Assembly: GCA_014238785.1 (NCBI GenBank)
Contig: JABAAL010000041.1
Location: 1 to 64,000 of the forward strand
Direction of reading: 5' to 3'
DNA length: 64,000 bases
From: Phycisphaerales bacterium
GTDB lineage: Bacteria; Planctomycetota; Phycisphaerae; Phycisphaerales; SM1A02
Under the pieces are notes generated by a model. That model saw only the letters and a list, made by a program, of their open reading frames with translations. It was not told the origin of the DNA and made no database searches. The position numbers were made by a program, and so were the translations under genes. This document shows, in pieces, positions 16,672-36,123 of this stretch (within the stretch, counting starts at the first letter, position 1; every line of letters begins with the position of its first letter).

Positions 16672-17399
16672 CGTTTCTCGCCCTTGCCAATTGGCATCCG
16701 TTTTGGCTCGCCTGCTAAGCGTGGATATTTCTTAGGCGTGGCTTCATTCTTTCTAATCGTTAATACCGTCCCCGTTGTCGTTCGCACACTCGATTCTACT
16801 TCCGCCTTTAAAACGTGCAAAGCCTTTCTTGCCTCTTCTACTTCAATCGGCGCACGTTCTCCTTTAATAGCAAGCACAACCCCGTCAATTTTTGCAAATG
16901 GAATTGTCAGCTCTAACAGTACATTTAAAGGACCAACCGCCCTTGCAATAACCGCATCAGCTATGCCACGAAAACCACCATCCTTCGTTGAAAGATTTTC
17001 TGCACGCTCAGCAATGACAGTAACATTATCCAAACCTAATTGTTCAACCGCATCCGACAAAAACAACGCTTTTTTGCGCGTCGTTTCAACAAGCGTAAAC
17101 GTTACGTCCGGAAGTGTGATTGCCAAAGGTATCCCGGGCAACCCTCCGCCACTGCCTACATCAACCACATGCTGAGCACCTTCTTTGACAAGCGTTGGAA
17201 TCAACGAGAGCGAATCAAGAATATGTTTCGTCCATGCTTCTTCCGGCTCTTTAATACCGGTCAAATTAAATTGCTTGTTTGTTTCAAGTAATAAGTCGAG
17301 GTAGTTTGCAAGTTGTTGCACATCTCCTTCGTCAAATTCAATTCCTAAATCAGCAATGAGCGCTTTAAAATTTTCGGGCAGTTGGGTAATTGATGGCAC
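16668..17399 (-). CDS. rsmG: 16S rRNA m7G527 methyltransferase RsmG
   Basis: 243 residues. Rossmann methyltransferase with the SAM-binding stretch VVDVGSGGGLPGIPLAI (about 79-95), preceded by the RsmG signature FNLTGIKEPEEAWTKHILDS and followed by TLVETTRKKALFL. It methylates G527 of 16S rRNA. It usually sits near gidA/parA; here it is wedged between rodA (one-base overlap of stop and start) and a DinG helicase gene (4-base overlap). Confidence 0.93.
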   Translation of the reverse strand: MPSITQLPENFKALIADLGIEFDEGDVQQLANYLDLLLETNKQFNLTGIKEPEEAWTKHILDSLSLIPTLVKEGAQHVVDVGSGGGLPGIPLAITLPDVTFTLVETTRKKALFLSDAVEQLGLDNVTVIAERAENLSTKDGGFRGIADAVIARAVGPLNVLLELTIPFAKIDGVVLAIKGERAPIEVEEARKALHVLKAEVESSVRTTTGTVLTIRKNEATPKKYPRLAGEPKRMPIGKGEKR

Positions 17400-18577
17400 T
17401 ACATCGTTCCTTCATCTGTAAAACTAAACCCTTCTCGGGTCATAACTGGGTCTCTTCGCATAGCAATGCCGAACAGGATACCCGCCATCAGCCACGCCAC
17501 CACCAAACTTGAACCTCCTGCACTAATAAAAGGCAAAGTTAATCCAGTAATTGGCGCAAGCCCGATCACCATCGCTGTGTTTATGATCATCTGTGAGAGC
17601 AGCATCGTCGTAAGACCAACAGCAACTAACCTTGGAAACGGATCTTTACAACCAAGAGATGCACCAATCCCACCAAGCCCGAGCACCATATATAAGACCC
17701 AGGTTCCAAGTGCACCAAACATCCCCCAGCGTAAACCGATTACGGCAAACACCATGTCATTGTGCTCTTCTGGAAGATGATTCGCTCGTAATAACTGTTC
17801 TGCCTCAACCTTGCCTACACCTGTAAGTTGCCCAGCACCAATCAGCGTCATCGCGCGCGCGCCTTGATAACCACTTGTTTGTTCGTACCTATCATCTCCC
17901 TGGATTTGGGCAATCAGCGCATCAATACGAGCTATTTGATGCGGGCGCAATATTGGATACATTGAGCCAGCAGCAACAAGTGCAAGCAATGCAATCGACA
18001 AGAGATGTTTATACTTCGCCCCAGCAGTAATGAGCATTGCTATCAATGCAGGAATAAACAACATCGCAGTTCCCAAGTCTGGCTCTAGAAGAATAAAGAA
18101 CATCGGAGGAAGTGCGACACAAAGCGCAACAACTAAGCCGCCGAAACTTCGATACTGTTCTTTGTATCTCAAGTGCGATGCAAGCGCGAGAACAAACGCA
18201 ATCTTCAATAGTTCAGACGGCTGAAAATCTGTTACCCCTACATTAATCCAGCGCCGAGCTCCATTTCTTGGGTGCACTATAAAATCTGGCACAAACGGAA
18301 TGAGCAAGAACAATAACAAAAGCAATCCACCAGTATATAACCACCAACTTGATTGACGCAACCGTCGGTGTGGAATAAATGCGACTGCAAAGGCAGCAAC
18401 AATTCCAATTGCTCCAAGTTGCATCTGGCGTATCGCTAAGGCTGGTCTTGTTGTATCTATTGCTTCAACGCCAAACAAAGACAAAAGGAGTGCTGCAAAC
18501 ACAACGAGCCAACCAGCGTGGAGGTTACGCGTTGCAGATAAATGTAATTGCCTTGTTGCCTTTGTTCGTAAACTCAT
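17399..18577 (-). CDS. rodA: SEDS peptidoglycan glycosyltransferase RodA
   Basis: 392 residues with about 10 membrane helices. Family motifs: NGARRWINVG (105-114) with FQPSELLKIAF, EEHNDMVFAVIGLRWG including the conserved Asp, and PFISAGGSSLV near the C-terminus. RodA polymerises glycan strands together with its partner PBP2, which is encoded directly upstream and overlaps by 4 bases. This pair implies peptidoglycan wall elongation, notable because the group was long debated as wall-less. Confidence 0.93.
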   Translation of the reverse strand: MSLRTKATRQLHLSATRNLHAGWLVVFAALLLSLFGVEAIDTTRPALAIRQMQLGAIGIVAAFAVAFIPHRRLRQSSWWLYTGGLLLLLFLLIPFVPDFIVHPRNGARRWINVGVTDFQPSELLKIAFVLALASHLRYKEQYRSFGGLVVALCVALPPMFFILLEPDLGTAMLFIPALIAMLITAGAKYKHLLSIALLALVAAGSMYPILRPHQIARIDALIAQIQGDDRYEQTSGYQGARAMTLIGAGQLTGVGKVEAEQLLRANHLPEEHNDMVFAVIGLRWGMFGALGTWVLYMVLGLGGIGASLGCKDPFPRLVAVGLTTMLLSQMIINTAMVIGLAPITGLTLPFISAGGSSLVVAWLMAGILFGIAMRRDPVMTREGFSFTDEGTM

Positions 18578-20766
18578 TTTGATGGCTCCAAGTAGCCTTC
18601 AGTTTTCAACGCATGCAATATCTGATTTGCGATTGGCCCCGCAACTCGACCACCACTTCCTCCGTGTTCAACAAGAACCGCAACAACAACCGTAGGCTTT
18701 TCTACGCCAATCGGTGCAGCCATAACCAAAAACCAAGCGTGGTCTAAACCCTTTATTTTTATTGTTTTAGAATCTTGCTTCAAAAGATAAGGTGGCGCTT
18801 GTGCAGTACCTGTTTTTCCCCACAGCGATACTCCATCAATGTTAAATGTCGGCTCTTCATTTCCTACACCTAACTTAAGTCGAGAACCAGTCCCATATTC
18901 CTTCGTCACTGAATCCTTCAATCCCGCAAGTGCAAGTTGTACTGCTTCTTGGTCGAGAAGCAAGTCTTTTTCGTTTTGCACATTGGACTCTATGAGCGTT
19001 GGCGATTTCCAGAGGCCGCCTCGAGCAAGGGTCGCATACGCCGCAGCTGCATGAAGCGGGGACCACGTCAACGCTCCTTGCCCAATAGATATGATTACCG
19101 CTTCAAATGCAAGTGCACCCCGATCTTTCAGGGACTGAATATCTATTTCACTTGGCAAGTGACCCTCAAAGCCTACGGCACTTGACTCCGTTAGCTGCGC
19201 TGCCAGTGGCTGCGACATCCCAAATCGTTGCAACCAGTCAAGCAATGTTGTAAATCCAAGACGCGTTCCTAGTTCGTAAAAGAAGATATTACAAGAACGC
19301 GCGATCGCTTCGACAGGTTTCAATTTGCCATGTGTTTTATTATTGTACTTTGGTCTATAAATCCAACACCGAGCCGCGTCTTTCACATGTTTAAAATAAT
19401 GCCCAACACATTCAATCGCTTCTTTGTGTGGCAACTTGCCCTCTGTTATTGCAGAAACAAGAACGAGAGGCTTGATAATAGAACCCGGTGCATAATACCC
19501 TTGTGCGGCGCGATTCAGCCAAGGGTAACCATCTACATCCTGTTTGTCTTGAAGCGCAGGCGTCGAAACCATCGCCAGAACCTCGCTTGTTGCAATATCT
19601 AATACAACAACAGCACCCCGAAGCGGCATTCCGTCTTCCAGATACTTATTTGCATGCCATGGCTGGACCATCATCAATCCAAATTCGTGCGACATCACTG
19701 CTTCGACTCGCGCTTGCAACTCCATATCCAAAGTGACACGAACATTTTTACCTCCAATTGGCACCAATCGTTGCATCTGATCGCCATTTCCATGCTTCAC
19801 AATTTGACCACGCTTCCCTCGCAGCTTTTCCTCCATCGATGATTCAATGCCTCGCTTTCCAATTTCATCGCCTGCACGGTACCCTTGCAAGTCAACACCG
19901 CCAGAGCTACGGAACGGTTTGCGTTTTATGTCTTCTGCCCAGACCTTCTCTCGAACATCACCAACGACACGTTCCGCGACATGTTCTAAGGATATCTCAA
20001 GAGTATCAAACTGGCGCATTGGCTTTGGCAACGTCGAACGATCAAGCAACACTACCTGTGTTCGCATCGGATATGCTCGCTCCCTCGAATGCTTAACATG
20101 TATTGCGCCATCAAAAACATCACTCAATAAGGAGAACTGGATTGCAACCTCATCACTCACCCGCGGAAGAACTACATGCGGCTCACTCTGTTCGCGAATT
20201 GGACTTCTAACAAATTTATCATTCTCGCCGTATCGTTCTCGATGCGCCTTTTCTTGCTCAGCCCAAACTCCTTGCGCCAACTTCTTCACTTTTTCTCGGA
20301 TACTGTCCAACTTCTTAGTAAGTTCGACTTGAGTAAGCCCCCCTTCAGCAGCAATAATCGACCAAAAATGAGCCAACTCTATTTCTCGATGCGGTAACAT
20401 CTGGGCAATCTCGTGCTCTTTCTCCTCCTTCGACATTGATTTCCAAGAATCATTCCCCATTTGTTGTTTTGCATCTTTTCGGGCGAGCACACTAGCTCGG
20501 TCGCCAGTTATCAAATCCCAATCTATCGCAATGTCATACGAGGCAACATCCTCCGCTATTACATTACTTTTCCTATCGAGGATTCTGCCACGCCATGTCG
20601 GCAAATACGATGTCGAATGTAGCCTCCCCTGTGCCTTCAAGAATCGTTTCTCCCCCTGTGAAATAGTCAACTTCCCAATTTGCCCAATAAGTACTACCAA
20701 AACCGCAATAAAAACAGCGACTAGGACAAGAAGACGGCGATGGAAGAGAATAAGACTCTTAAACAT
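18574..20766 (-). CDS. mrdA: Penicillin-binding protein 2 (elongation transpeptidase)
   Basis: 730 residues, longer than the usual 600-650. One N-terminal membrane helix (about 12-32), PBP dimerisation/pedestal region with PTWRGRILDRKSNVIAED (56-73) and a long charged insert (about 85-230), then the transpeptidase: SxxK at 429-432 (GSIIKP), SxN at 491-493 (SCN) and KTG at 651-653. It cross-links peptidoglycan made by RodA, its overlapping neighbour. It is the first gene of the run mrdA-rodA-rsmG-dinG. mreB/C/D, its common neighbours, are not upstream; instead there is a structured RNA and tRNA-Gln on the other strand. Confidence 0.92.
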   Translation of the reverse strand: MFKSLILFHRRLLVLVAVFIAVLVVLIGQIGKLTISQGEKRFLKAQGRLHSTSYLPTWRGRILDRKSNVIAEDVASYDIAIDWDLITGDRASVLARKDAKQQMGNDSWKSMSKEEKEHEIAQMLPHREIELAHFWSIIAAEGGLTQVELTKKLDSIREKVKKLAQGVWAEQEKAHRERYGENDKFVRSPIREQSEPHVVLPRVSDEVAIQFSLLSDVFDGAIHVKHSRERAYPMRTQVVLLDRSTLPKPMRQFDTLEISLEHVAERVVGDVREKVWAEDIKRKPFRSSGGVDLQGYRAGDEIGKRGIESSMEEKLRGKRGQIVKHGNGDQMQRLVPIGGKNVRVTLDMELQARVEAVMSHEFGLMMVQPWHANKYLEDGMPLRGAVVVLDIATSEVLAMVSTPALQDKQDVDGYPWLNRAAQGYYAPGSIIKPLVLVSAITEGKLPHKEAIECVGHYFKHVKDAARCWIYRPKYNNKTHGKLKPVEAIARSCNIFFYELGTRLGFTTLLDWLQRFGMSQPLAAQLTESSAVGFEGHLPSEIDIQSLKDRGALAFEAVIISIGQGALTWSPLHAAAAYATLARGGLWKSPTLIESNVQNEKDLLLDQEAVQLALAGLKDSVTKEYGTGSRLKLGVGNEEPTFNIDGVSLWGKTGTAQAPPYLLKQDSKTIKIKGLDHAWFLVMAAPIGVEKPTVVVAVLVEHGGSGGRVAGPIANQILHALKTEGYLEPSK

Positions 20767-20831
20767 AAGTGGTATTGAAAGGATACGGCATTAACATATC
20801 GGCAACAGTACCCACAAAAACTGATTTATGC

Positions 20832-20860
20832 TTGGCAAGCACTTCACGAAGGTGTATAAT
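20832..20860 (+). promoter_or_regulatory. Strong sigma70-type promoter
   Basis: TTGGCA at 20832-20837 and a perfect TATAAT at 20855-20860 with a 17-base spacer, the best promoter seen in the window. Expected transcription start is about 20867. It would drive the untranslated structured stretch and tRNA-Gln at 21077. It lies 66 bases from the mrdA start on the opposite strand. Confidence 0.72.
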
Positions 20861-20866
20861 TCTCAT

Positions 20867-21060
20867 CCTTCCCCAAAGCGGGACCGTCAGTGACAAGTCG
20901 TAAACTTGGCGCTGCATGGGGCACAAATCGCGGCGATTAGTGCTCCAAGTCCTAGGAGAAGTTTCGCCGCGGTTGGGCACTCCCCGTGTTTCCCTCCGCG
21001 ATTCAAGCAAGTCTTACTCCAAAGTAAGACAGGAGATTCACGAGAGTTGCTCTCAAAAAG
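20867..21060 (+). ncRNA. Putative structured non-coding RNA / tRNA leader
   Basis: No convincing protein is encoded here. The stretch follows a consensus promoter and contains nested inverted repeats: CATGGGG (20915-20921) with CCCCGTG (20982-20988) enclosing a perfect 8-bp stem CGCGGCGA (20929-20936) with TCGCCGCG (20964-20971), and inside it CTCC/GGAG. Two further hairpins follow: a perfect 7-bp stem GTCTTAC/GTAAGAC (21011-21030) and GAGAG/CTCTC (21042-21054). A long rod with internal loops near a strong promoter would suit 6S RNA, but I could not match conserved 6S, RNase P, SRP or tmRNA sequences. It may instead be a leader cotranscribed with tRNA-Gln. Confidence 0.42.
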
Positions 21061-21076
21061 CGAACTCTAAACATTT

Positions 21077-21148
21077 TGGCCCGTGGTGTAATCGGTAACA
21101 CACCTGGTTTTGATCCAGGCATTCCAAGTTCAAGTCTTGGCGGGCCAG
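21077..21148 (+). tRNA. tRNA-Gln (anticodon TTG)
   Basis: A full cloverleaf is visible in 72 bases: acceptor TGGCCCG/CGGGCCA, D stem GTGT/ACAC, anticodon stem CCTGG/CCAGG with loop TTTTGAT (anticodon TTG at 21110-21112), 4-base variable loop, T stem CCAAG/CTTGG with TTCAAGT loop. The discriminator base is G as in other glutamine tRNAs. CCA is not encoded. No promoter is evident directly upstream, so it may come from the promoter at 20832. Confidence 0.95.
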
Positions 21149-21219
21149 TTTCCCCCCACCGGAAGAACCGAAATTACAGGAAGCCAAAGACTTCCAAAAC
21201 ATGAGGACTGTTAATTCAG

Positions 21220-21996
21220 ATGAGCGCTTCAGAACAATCCAACAAACCGCTAGCCGCTGTGATCCTCGCAGCTGGCAAAGGAACGCGTATGGATAGTGAC
21301 TTGCCAAAAGTAGTTCACGAAGTTGCAGGAAAACCAATGGTGCAATGGGTGGTAGACGCCGTTCGCGAAGCCGGAGCTGACCGAGTCATCCTCGTCGTTG
21401 GGCATGGCGCAGAAATTGTCAAAGACAAAGTTCAAGGGTGCGAATACGTTTTACAAGAACCGCAGCTTGGCACAGGCCACGCCGTTCTTGTTTGTAAAGA
21501 AGCACTTGCTGGCTTTGACGGGGACATTCTCATCCTCGGTGGTGACGGACCACTTCTTCGTGCTTCAACTATACATAAAATGGTAGAACTCCAGAACAAA
21601 ACTTCTGCAGCAGCGACACTAGCAACGAGTGTCATCGCAGATCCCACCGGCTACGGAAGAATCGTTCGTGATAGCGACAACATGTTTGAAGCAATCATCG
21701 AGCACAAAAATGCAACTCTCGAACAACTTGAAATTCATGAAGTCTACCCAAGTTACGCTGTGTTTAATGCTGAAAAACTTTGGGAATGCCTCGACGCACT
21801 AGAGCCAAACCCACTCACCAACGAGTATTACCTTACCGAAGTTCCACGAACGTTAAAAGAACAAGGTAAAACTGTTGAAGTCGTCAATGCTGTTGACCCA
21901 CAAGACATACTTTCAATTAACACCCCTGAACAATTACAAGAAGTCGAATCTATTTTGCTTGCAAGAATCAATACTAAAATGGAGCATTCAGCATGA
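21220..21996 (+). CDS. GlmU-type N-acetylglucosamine-1-phosphate uridylyltransferase domain protein
   Basis: 258 residues, corresponding to the N-terminal pyrophosphorylase half of GlmU. Signature LAAGKGTRM (16-24) with Lys30, QLGTGHAV, GYGRIVRD and YLTEVPRTLKEQGK are all GlmU-like. The usual GDVPL motif reads GDGPL. The left-handed beta-helix acetyltransferase half (about 200 residues) is missing, so glucosamine-1-phosphate acetylation must be done by another protein. Product would be UDP-GlcNAc for wall and glycan synthesis. Its stop overlaps the prs start by 4 bases, a pairing also common for full-length glmU. Confidence 0.85.
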   Translation: MSASEQSNKPLAAVILAAGKGTRMDSDLPKVVHEVAGKPMVQWVVDAVREAGADRVILVVGHGAEIVKDKVQGCEYVLQEPQLGTGHAVLVCKEALAGFDGDILILGGDGPLLRASTIHKMVELQNKTSAAATLATSVIADPTGYGRIVRDSDNMFEAIIEHKNATLEQLEIHEVYPSYAVFNAEKLWECLDALEPNPLTNEYYLTEVPRTLKEQGKTVEVVNAVDPQDILSINTPEQLQEVESILLARINTKMEHSA

Positions 21997-22979
21997 GCCA
22001 CGATGACCATAAGCGTATGAAAATATTCGCCGCAACTGGTGGCGAGCATTTAGCCTTAGAAATGTGCAGCCATCTCGAGATGCCTCTGGCGGCAGCAACC
22101 GTTGAGTGCTTTCCCGATAAGGAAATCATTGTAAAAATTGACGAGGACATTCGTGGACGCGATTGTTTCGTCGTTCAATCAACTTCGATGCCCGTCAATG
22201 ACAACTTGATGGAACTGCTTATCTGGATCGATACACTAAGGCGCGCGTCTGCGGGGCGAATCACTGCGGTCATCCCATACTTCGGATACGCAAGACAAGA
22301 CCGAAAAGATGAAGGTCGCGTACCAATAACTGCAAAACTCGTTGCAAATATTATCACCGCCGCTGGTGCAAACCGCGTCCTCTGCATGGATTTACATGCA
22401 GCCCAAATTCAAGGCTTTTTTGATATCCCAGTAGACCACCTTACGGCGACAAAAGTATTTTGCGATTACTTTGCAACGCGTCCAGACATGCAAGGCGATG
22501 ACATGGTCATTGTTTCACCAGATGTTGGCAACGTAAAAGTTGCAAACATGTACGCTGGGCTGCTCGATGCAAAACTTGCAATCATCGACAAACGCCGAGA
22601 ATCTGGCACTGAAGTCGTCTCGAAACGACTCATTGGCGATGTTGAAGGCAAAACCGTTCTGATGGTTGATGACATGATTTCAACAGCTGGAACTATTTGC
22701 GAAGCCGCAAAACTTGTTAAAGAAAAAGGCGCAATCAAAGTCATCGCGGCTGCAACACACGGCGTATGTGTAGGTCCAGCAATTGAACGAATCACCTCCT
22801 CACCAATCAGCGAAGTTATCATCACCGATACCATTGCGCCCGATAGTCGGCTCGATGGGCTTGGCGAAACATTACACATCTTAAGTGTTGCACGTTTTCT
22901 CGGCGAAGCCGTGCATAGAATTCACCACCACATGTCAATCTCCTCCCTCTTCAATCGTGGAGAAGGACCGAAGAAATAA
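21993..22979 (+). CDS. prs: Ribose-phosphate pyrophosphokinase
   Basis: 328 residues; an inner ATG at 22017 (MKIFAATGGEHLALEM) gives a more usual N-terminus of about 320 residues and may be the true start. PRPP synthetase motifs: FPDKEIIVKIDEDIRG, PYFGYARQDRK, DLHAAQIQGFFDIPVDHL and the PRPP loop VDDMISTAGTI. It makes PRPP for nucleotide, His, Trp and NAD synthesis. It is coupled to the GlmU-like gene and followed 21 bases later by rplY, the common glmU-prs-ctc-pth order. Confidence 0.94.
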   Translation: MSHDDHKRMKIFAATGGEHLALEMCSHLEMPLAAATVECFPDKEIIVKIDEDIRGRDCFVVQSTSMPVNDNLMELLIWIDTLRRASAGRITAVIPYFGYARQDRKDEGRVPITAKLVANIITAAGANRVLCMDLHAAQIQGFFDIPVDHLTATKVFCDYFATRPDMQGDDMVIVSPDVGNVKVANMYAGLLDAKLAIIDKRRESGTEVVSKRLIGDVEGKTVLMVDDMISTAGTICEAAKLVKEKGAIKVIAAATHGVCVGPAIERITSSPISEVIITDTIAPDSRLDGLGETLHILSVARFLGEAVHRIHHHMSISSLFNRGEGPKK

Positions 22980-23000
22980 ATGCAGTAGATAGGAAAGAAT

Positions 23001-23660
23001 ATGGCACATGAAACACCAGTAGTAAAAGTAGAAGTCCGAGATAAAACCGGAACAACGTACGCAAGGCGACTCCGGAAAAGCGGCCGCTTGCCTGCAACCA
23101 TTTATAGCAAGGGAACAGACCCGATTTCCGTTAGCGTTAACGAAATTGAAATCCTTCGTTACTTACACGACGGCAATCACGTCATGGAACTTGATAATGG
23201 CGATGGAACTCCAGCAACTGTGCTCGTAAAAGATCTTCAATTCGGATACCTTGGCGACAATTTAATTCATGTTGATTTTGCACGTGTGGACCTCAAACAA
23301 GTCGTGACTGTGACGATGACCCTTGAACTTACAGGACAACCAATTTCTGCAACTGCCGCAGGCGCTGTCCTTGAAGTACCAAGGCCGCAAATCGAAATTG
23401 AATGCATGGTAAAAGATATACCTGATTCAATTAAAGTTGACCTTACAACCGTTGAAAGCGTCTTCACTATTGGAGACTTGGATCTTCCCGATGGCGTTAG
23501 AGCGATTCTTGACCCTGAACGTCATATCGCACACGTAACTATCGTACAAGAAGAAGTTGAGCAAGATGTTGAAGCAGTCGAAGGCGAAGAAGCAACACCA
23601 GAAGTGATCAGCGATTCAACCGAAGGATCAACTGAAGAATCAACTGAAGGCGACGGGTAA
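23001..23660 (+). CDS. rplY: 50S ribosomal protein L25/Ctc
   Basis: 219 residues, the long (CTC) form with an N-terminal 5S rRNA-binding domain (RRLRKSGRLPATIYSKG, about 19-35) and a C-terminal beta domain. A strongly acidic Glu/Ser/Thr tail occupies roughly the last 35 residues. Similar acidic tails occur on S6 and L9 in the same gene run. It lies between prs and pth, a classical arrangement. Confidence 0.94.
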   Translation: MAHETPVVKVEVRDKTGTTYARRLRKSGRLPATIYSKGTDPISVSVNEIEILRYLHDGNHVMELDNGDGTPATVLVKDLQFGYLGDNLIHVDFARVDLKQVVTVTMTLELTGQPISATAAGAVLEVPRPQIEIECMVKDIPDSIKVDLTTVESVFTIGDLDLPDGVRAILDPERHIAHVTIVQEEVEQDVEAVEGEEATPEVISDSTEGSTEESTEGDG

Positions 23661-36049: not shown

Positions 36050-36123
36050 GCGCGTGTAGCTCAACTGGATAGAGCATCGGCCTTCGAAGCCGAGGGTTGC
36101 GGGTTCGAGTCCCTCCACGCGTG
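36050..36123 (+). tRNA. tRNA-Arg (anticodon TCG)
   Basis: Cloverleaf of 74 bases: acceptor GCGCGTG/CACGCGT (first pair G-T), D arm GCTC/GAGC, anticodon stem TCGGC/GCCGA with loop CTTCGAA (anticodon TCG), variable GGGTT, T arm GCGGG/CCCTC with loop TTCGAGT and one C-T mismatch, discriminator G. CCA is not encoded. Reads CGA-type arginine codons. Confidence 0.92.

Follow-up and report, generated by a model that had tools for sequence, protein, structure and literature searches.

A predicted pseudoknotted three-way-junction RNA upstream of tRNA-Gln in Phycisphaerales and their class

The locus and the predicted fold of its RNA

The window, that is, the whole stretch of 64,000 nucleotides analysed here (contig JABAAL010000041.1 of a Phycisphaerales bacterium, positions 1 to 64,000), carries on its forward strand a sigma-70-type promoter, a structured RNA, a tRNA gene and three protein genes in close succession. 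The promoter, TTGGCA (20832–20837) followed by 17 bases and TATAAT (20855–20860), matches the consensus at 11 of 12 positions and is the only promoter-like site between 20700 and 21300, where shuffled sequences give 0.5; homologues have one at the same distance. The tRNA gene, tRNA-Gln (TTG), was located at 21077–21148 by tRNA search and Rfam. Downstream lie open reading frames (21220–23660) that we take, from their sequences, to be glmU (21220–21996), prs (21993–22979) and rplY (23001–23660), recovered by tblastn in homologous loci. Divergent from the promoter, RodA-like and penicillin-binding-protein-like genes occupy 17399–20766, and similar neighbours are present in only some relatives. 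The window also holds a tRNA-Arg (TCG) at 36050–36123.

The interval assigned to the leader RNA (20867–21076, forward strand) extends from its inferred 5′ end to the predicted RNase P site before tRNA-Gln. It folds with −76.3 kcal/mol (z = −4.56), a value equalled by none of 200 shuffles, and a covariance model matches 20860–20975 with 111.9 bits, at a single place in the organism's own genome. The order of promoter, structured RNA and tRNA-Gln proposed by a first-pass annotation of this DNA is thus borne out by the consensus match, the folding z-score and the tRNA search.

Comparison with homologues reveals a three-way junction of helices P1, P2 and P3, in which the loop of P3 pairs with a downstream strand as a pseudoknot. 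The closing stem consists of an outer part, P1a, whose 5′ strand (20868–20874) pairs with 20955–20961 with one C·A mismatch in this genome, and an inner part, P1b, formed by GGGA (20880–20883) and UCCU (20950–20953). The P2 hairpin (20888–20914) contains an A·G mismatch (20893/20909); its six basal pairs have all changed on both sides among homologues and are 98.6% paired. P3 (20918–20946, GGGGCAC/GUGCUCC) is 97.5% paired, with five of six pairs changed on both sides. Strand a, in the P3 loop (20928–20936), pairs with strand b (20964–20972) just beyond P1, as seen in both the order and the class alignments described below. Farther downstream, strand c (CCGCGATT, 20996–21003) is likewise complementary to strand a (20926–20933). 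A further element, P5 (20994–21035), in which CUCC/GGAG (20994–20997/21032–21035) encloses GUCUUAC/GUAAGAC (21011–21017/21024–21030), comes from a consensus fold of ten genus members and belongs to the genus only. The loop lengths of the element vary freely among homologues. By contrast, the third pair of P3 (20920/20944) is G·U in 57 of the 60 rows of the order alignment and in all 24 rows of the class-level one, a constancy that suggests a part in binding or in tertiary structure.

This architecture replaces the nested hairpin, an 8-bp stem inside a 7-bp stem, that had been read from the window alone and that the homologues do not bear out. Its inner stem, CGCGGCGA/TCGCCGCG, is indeed a conserved pairing, but as the pseudoknot, joining the P3 loop to the strand after P1, and not as a hairpin stem. 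Its outer stem, CATGGGG/CCCCGTG, exists in this genome only and is absent from the nine other aligned genus members; in the genus alignment CATGGGG is part of J2/3 and P3. Of two further hairpins suggested at the same time, GTCTTAC/GTAAGAC has counterparts throughout the genus, whereas GAGAG/CTCTC, judged by eye, fits better into a longer pre-tRNA stem.

Conservation and covariation in the order and the class

A DNA search of 61 relatives, together with the flanks of tRNA-Gln genes, shows that the element occurs in the genus, elsewhere in its family and in further families of the order. Twenty order sequences served to build a first covariance model, R1, limited to P2 and P3. Among order loci that have both a tRNA-Gln (TTG) and sequence upstream of it, R1 matches 45 of 47 at E ≤0.1; the training loci are 20 of these 47, and 25 of the 27 untrained loci are matched. 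The two loci without a match (L020 and L073) fall in the same family, f6, and L020 looks like a member by eye despite its lack of a match. The order alignment, A3, comprises 74 matches, 60 of them distinct. Over P1a, P1b, P2, P3 and the a:b pseudoknot, 88.7% of its cells are paired, against 78.1% in shuffles and 41–54% in slid controls, and 24 of 33 pairs have changed on both sides. P1b lies outside the R1 model, yet both sides have changed in all four of its pairs. P1a reaches only 67.9% pairing in A3, we think owing to a one-base register shift between sequences; in an alignment-free comparison of 43 non-redundant homologues, its own strands pair with −13.2 kcal/mol and swapped strands with −11.6 kcal/mol, and none of 5,000 permutations is as good. 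The a:b pseudoknot is paired in 90% of cells in the order but is mostly invariant, so that the order alone says little about it.

The pseudoknot is seen to covary at the level of the class. In other class orders, the region before tRNA-Gln is built in the same way: P1, approximately CACGGGG, P2, a P3 that begins with GGGC, AAGCCUC as the joint, then the P1 partner and lastly the pseudoknot strand, which in some loci follows one extra hairpin. A second model, R2, built from 14 class loci without the pseudoknot, matches 19 of 21 class loci at E ≤1, including the 14 that trained it; five of the seven untrained loci are matched, with weak matches for two (E 0.11 and 0.23), and both unmatched ones (L078 and L102) share family f99. 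Of 30 tRNA-Gln loci from outside the class, R2 matches none; of 17 order-level loci it matches two (L021 and L011), weakly, and these two matches tie the order and class sets together. In the resulting alignment of 24 sequences, A5, which includes the two weak order rows, the pseudoknot, although absent from R2, is paired in all 120 cells with 12 compensatory changes, and none of 500 shuffles is as good in either percentage or score. The remaining helices reach 89.9% pairing, where shuffles reach 73.4%, and 12 of 16 pairs have changed on both sides, among them six of the seven pairs of P1a. A partner-swapping test of the class pseudoknot, a weak test done before the aligned count in A5, gave 290 of 10,000 permutations as good. 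A free descriptor of P1, P3 and the pseudoknot scored by stacking energy, for which at most one of 40 shuffles is as good in eight of 21 class loci, was rejected as unspecific because it also passes at four of 35 tRNA-Gln places outside the class.

Searches blind to the tRNA return the element to the same place. When all genome contigs were scanned for the P2–P3 pattern, 40 stretches came up, of which R1 confirmed 33, most of these bearing Phycisphaerales, Phycisphaerae or Planctomycetota names; the seven without an R1 match look like chance. A tRNA-Gln lies just downstream on the same strand in 32 of the 33 confirmed copies, the last being cut at 301 bases. A tRNA-blind search of 22 whole genomes with R2 yielded six matches at E ≤1, all before tRNA-Gln; two are training loci (G420 and G334), one had already been met as a tRNA-Gln locus (G368) and three are wholly new. 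The same search missed three genomes that bear the element (G350, G355 and G423), so that absence is uninformative there. For the same reason, nothing can be read on absence from an R1 scan of 294 phylum genomes, with 12 candidates scored per genome, which matched four and missed the true carriers G040, G048 and G054. Neither tRNA-blind search, of contigs or of genomes, found the element away from tRNA-Gln. Two contigs, one labelled Singulisphaera (L136) and one Bacteroidia (L139), bear the element at scores equal to those of Phycisphaerae-type contigs and are probably mislabelled or from mixed bins.

The gene block after the tRNA is kept across the class, as judged by tblastn in homologous loci: nearly all loci with enough sequence have glmU and prs downstream, or prs and rplY where glmU is absent. 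Many loci outside the class have the same tRNA-Gln–glmU or tRNA-Gln–prs neighbourhood without the RNA (L146–L175), an arrangement that looks ancient within the phylum. The occurrence of the block without the RNA outside the class suggests that the RNA was probably added to a pre-existing block.

Relation to known RNA families and to coding sequence

The element does not correspond to a known family. Rfam searches of the 64-kb window recovered only its two tRNAs, and at 20770–21220, with E up to 10, nothing credible was found besides the tRNA; the elements of relatives are unmatched at E up to 2–3, and no family of Rfam release 15 matches the element. Matches to RNase P (254.6 bits), tmRNA (139.1 bits) and SRP RNA (38.5 bits, just under the cut-off) lie on other contigs of the same genome, and the T-box model has no match at the element. 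Literature searches found no description of it, and the main text of two surveys of orphan structured RNAs (PMC11109978 and PMC8632094) contains neither planctomycetes nor glmU. The comparative evidence indicates that the element represents an RNA family not described before, belonging to the class of the Phycisphaerales and having a well-supported predicted fold. In being found by covariation and having no known function, it resembles the orphan structured RNA candidates of comparative genomics.

The first-pass annotation had offered two readings, a diverged 6S-type RNA or a new tRNA leader. The resemblance to 6S RNA (RF00013) lies in a strong promoter, a length of about 200 nt and a lack of coding capacity, and the Rfam 6S model, with matches in 18 of the 61 relatives at E ≤1, has none elsewhere in any of the 13 genomes of the genus (about 1.6–2.1 Mb). 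However, RF00013 does not match the element, and its covarying fold of P1, P2 and P3 with a pseudoknot differs from the single long hairpin with a central bulge that defines 6S RNA. Moreover, ten relatives carry a 6S match (E <0.001) and the element at separate places (G013, G029, G030, G036, G040, G043, G051, G052, G055 and G060, the element match in G052 being weak, E 0.085). A 6S identity is therefore very improbable; the genus itself appears to have lost its 6S RNA, or to have one that has strongly diverged, along with having a small genome.

Still harder to credit is that the structure arose by chance or that the interval is a small protein gene. Short open reading frames do occur on both strands, but no frame on either strand is open in all 11 genus members, the loop lengths vary without constraint and the helices show compensatory changes. 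The covariation and conserved-frame checks attached to the first-pass annotation, like its Rfam check for 6S, RNase P and SRP RNA, thus left the proposal of an RNA standing.

Two classes of regulatory leader merit comparison. Three-way-junction riboswitch aptamers with a pseudoknot are known, for example the glutamine riboswitch, and share with the element a compact form, conserved joining bases, a loop-to-tail pseudoknot and a place at the start of a transcript; the element, however, precedes a tRNA rather than a coding region, matches no such family in Rfam and is followed by no terminator in the order. T-boxes, which sit before protein-coding genes and bind a tRNA transcribed from another locus, are also leader RNAs with a tRNA theme, but here the tRNA is itself the next gene, and again Rfam gives no match.

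Transcription, release and possible action of the RNA

A promoter with at least 8 of 12 consensus positions lies upstream of the element, at near-constant spacing, in 33 of 43 non-redundant order homologues (10% in shuffles). The distance from the end of the −10 box to the CCG of the junction has a median of 22 bases, which places the transcription start near the first base of P1; in the window this puts the inferred 5′ end near 20867. None of 39 order tails contains a promoter site with at least 9 of 12 positions between RNA and tRNA, and none a terminator-like site there, the window included, although such a promoter site lies within the 110 bases upstream of 10 of the 30 tRNA-Gln genes taken from outside the class. 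RNA and tRNA-Gln are thus very likely co-transcribed in the order. There, the RNA most likely forms the leader of a tRNA-Gln–glmU–prs–rplY transcript, from which RNase P would free it, in agreement with the second of the two earlier readings. The arrangement expected of an RNase P-released tRNA leader, with neither promoter nor terminator between RNA and tRNA, holds in the order, and some class members differ: two of 18 class loci have a terminator-like site in this interval, and three close relatives from another class order (L096, L099 and L100) have TATAAT 18 bases before the tRNA. RNA and tRNA may be separate transcription units in these three, the supposed tRNA promoter being one hexamer in closely related sequences.

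Our best explanation, held tentatively and at a little under an even chance, is that the element is a trans-acting RNA released from the tRNA-Gln transcript. Transcription would begin at the first base of P1 and run through tRNA-Gln into glmU–prs–rplY; the compact domain, closed by P1 with its inner P1b and locked by the P3-loop pseudoknot, would then be cut by RNase P at 21076/21077, giving a stable RNA of about 210 nt. The tRNA would serve as the maker of its 3′ end, and the freed RNA would act alone in trans, where it would probably form the core of a small protein–RNA particle. This reading is favoured because there is no terminator and because the next gene is a tRNA, which offers no ribosome site for a switch to control. 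The TATAAT before the tRNA in L096, L099 and L100 further suggests that the RNA is retained where a separate promoter serves the tRNA. Against it counts the strict linkage to tRNA-Gln, which would be natural for a leader acting in cis.

Such a riboswitch-like leader is a real possibility, if one we would bet against. In it, a pseudoknotted junction binding a ligand or a protein would set transcription or processing of tRNA-Gln–glmU–prs–rplY, and strand a might exchange strand b for strand c. Besides the unbroken linkage, a compact junction with a pseudoknot is typical of aptamers, and in the order strand a has c as a second conserved partner besides b: beyond the pseudoknot, 31 of 39 order tails contain the CCGCG[AT] motif of strand c, against 7.4 expected from shuffles. 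However, in order sequences inspected by eye, covariation of c with a is not supported, and c fails to follow changes of strand a in several of them, L014 and L018 included. The scarcity of terminator-like sites, and a gene block older than the RNA, likewise speak against control in cis. The more specific proposal that the P3 loop chooses between b and c, and so sets the output of tRNA-Gln, GlmU and Prs from one transcript, seems to us doubtful; we know of no earlier case of a switch in front of a tRNA gene.

Less probable again, and on balance unlikely, is a processive antitermination or processing element that would aid RNA polymerase or RNase P on the tRNA–mRNA transcript. Structured leader elements with antitermination or processing roles are known, and the element would lie at the head of a transcript continuing past a tRNA into protein-coding genes. 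Yet no Rfam element of this kind matches, and the same gene block outside the class manages without the RNA.

The family, absent from Rfam and kept in most class members examined, occupies an unusual place between a promoter and a tRNA, and belongs to a bacterial group whose RNA biology is hardly described. Either a tRNA would stand under a structured leader, or a tRNA would cut out a separate RNA; and if the choice between strands b and c proved true, translation, cell wall and nucleotide precursors would be tied to one signal.
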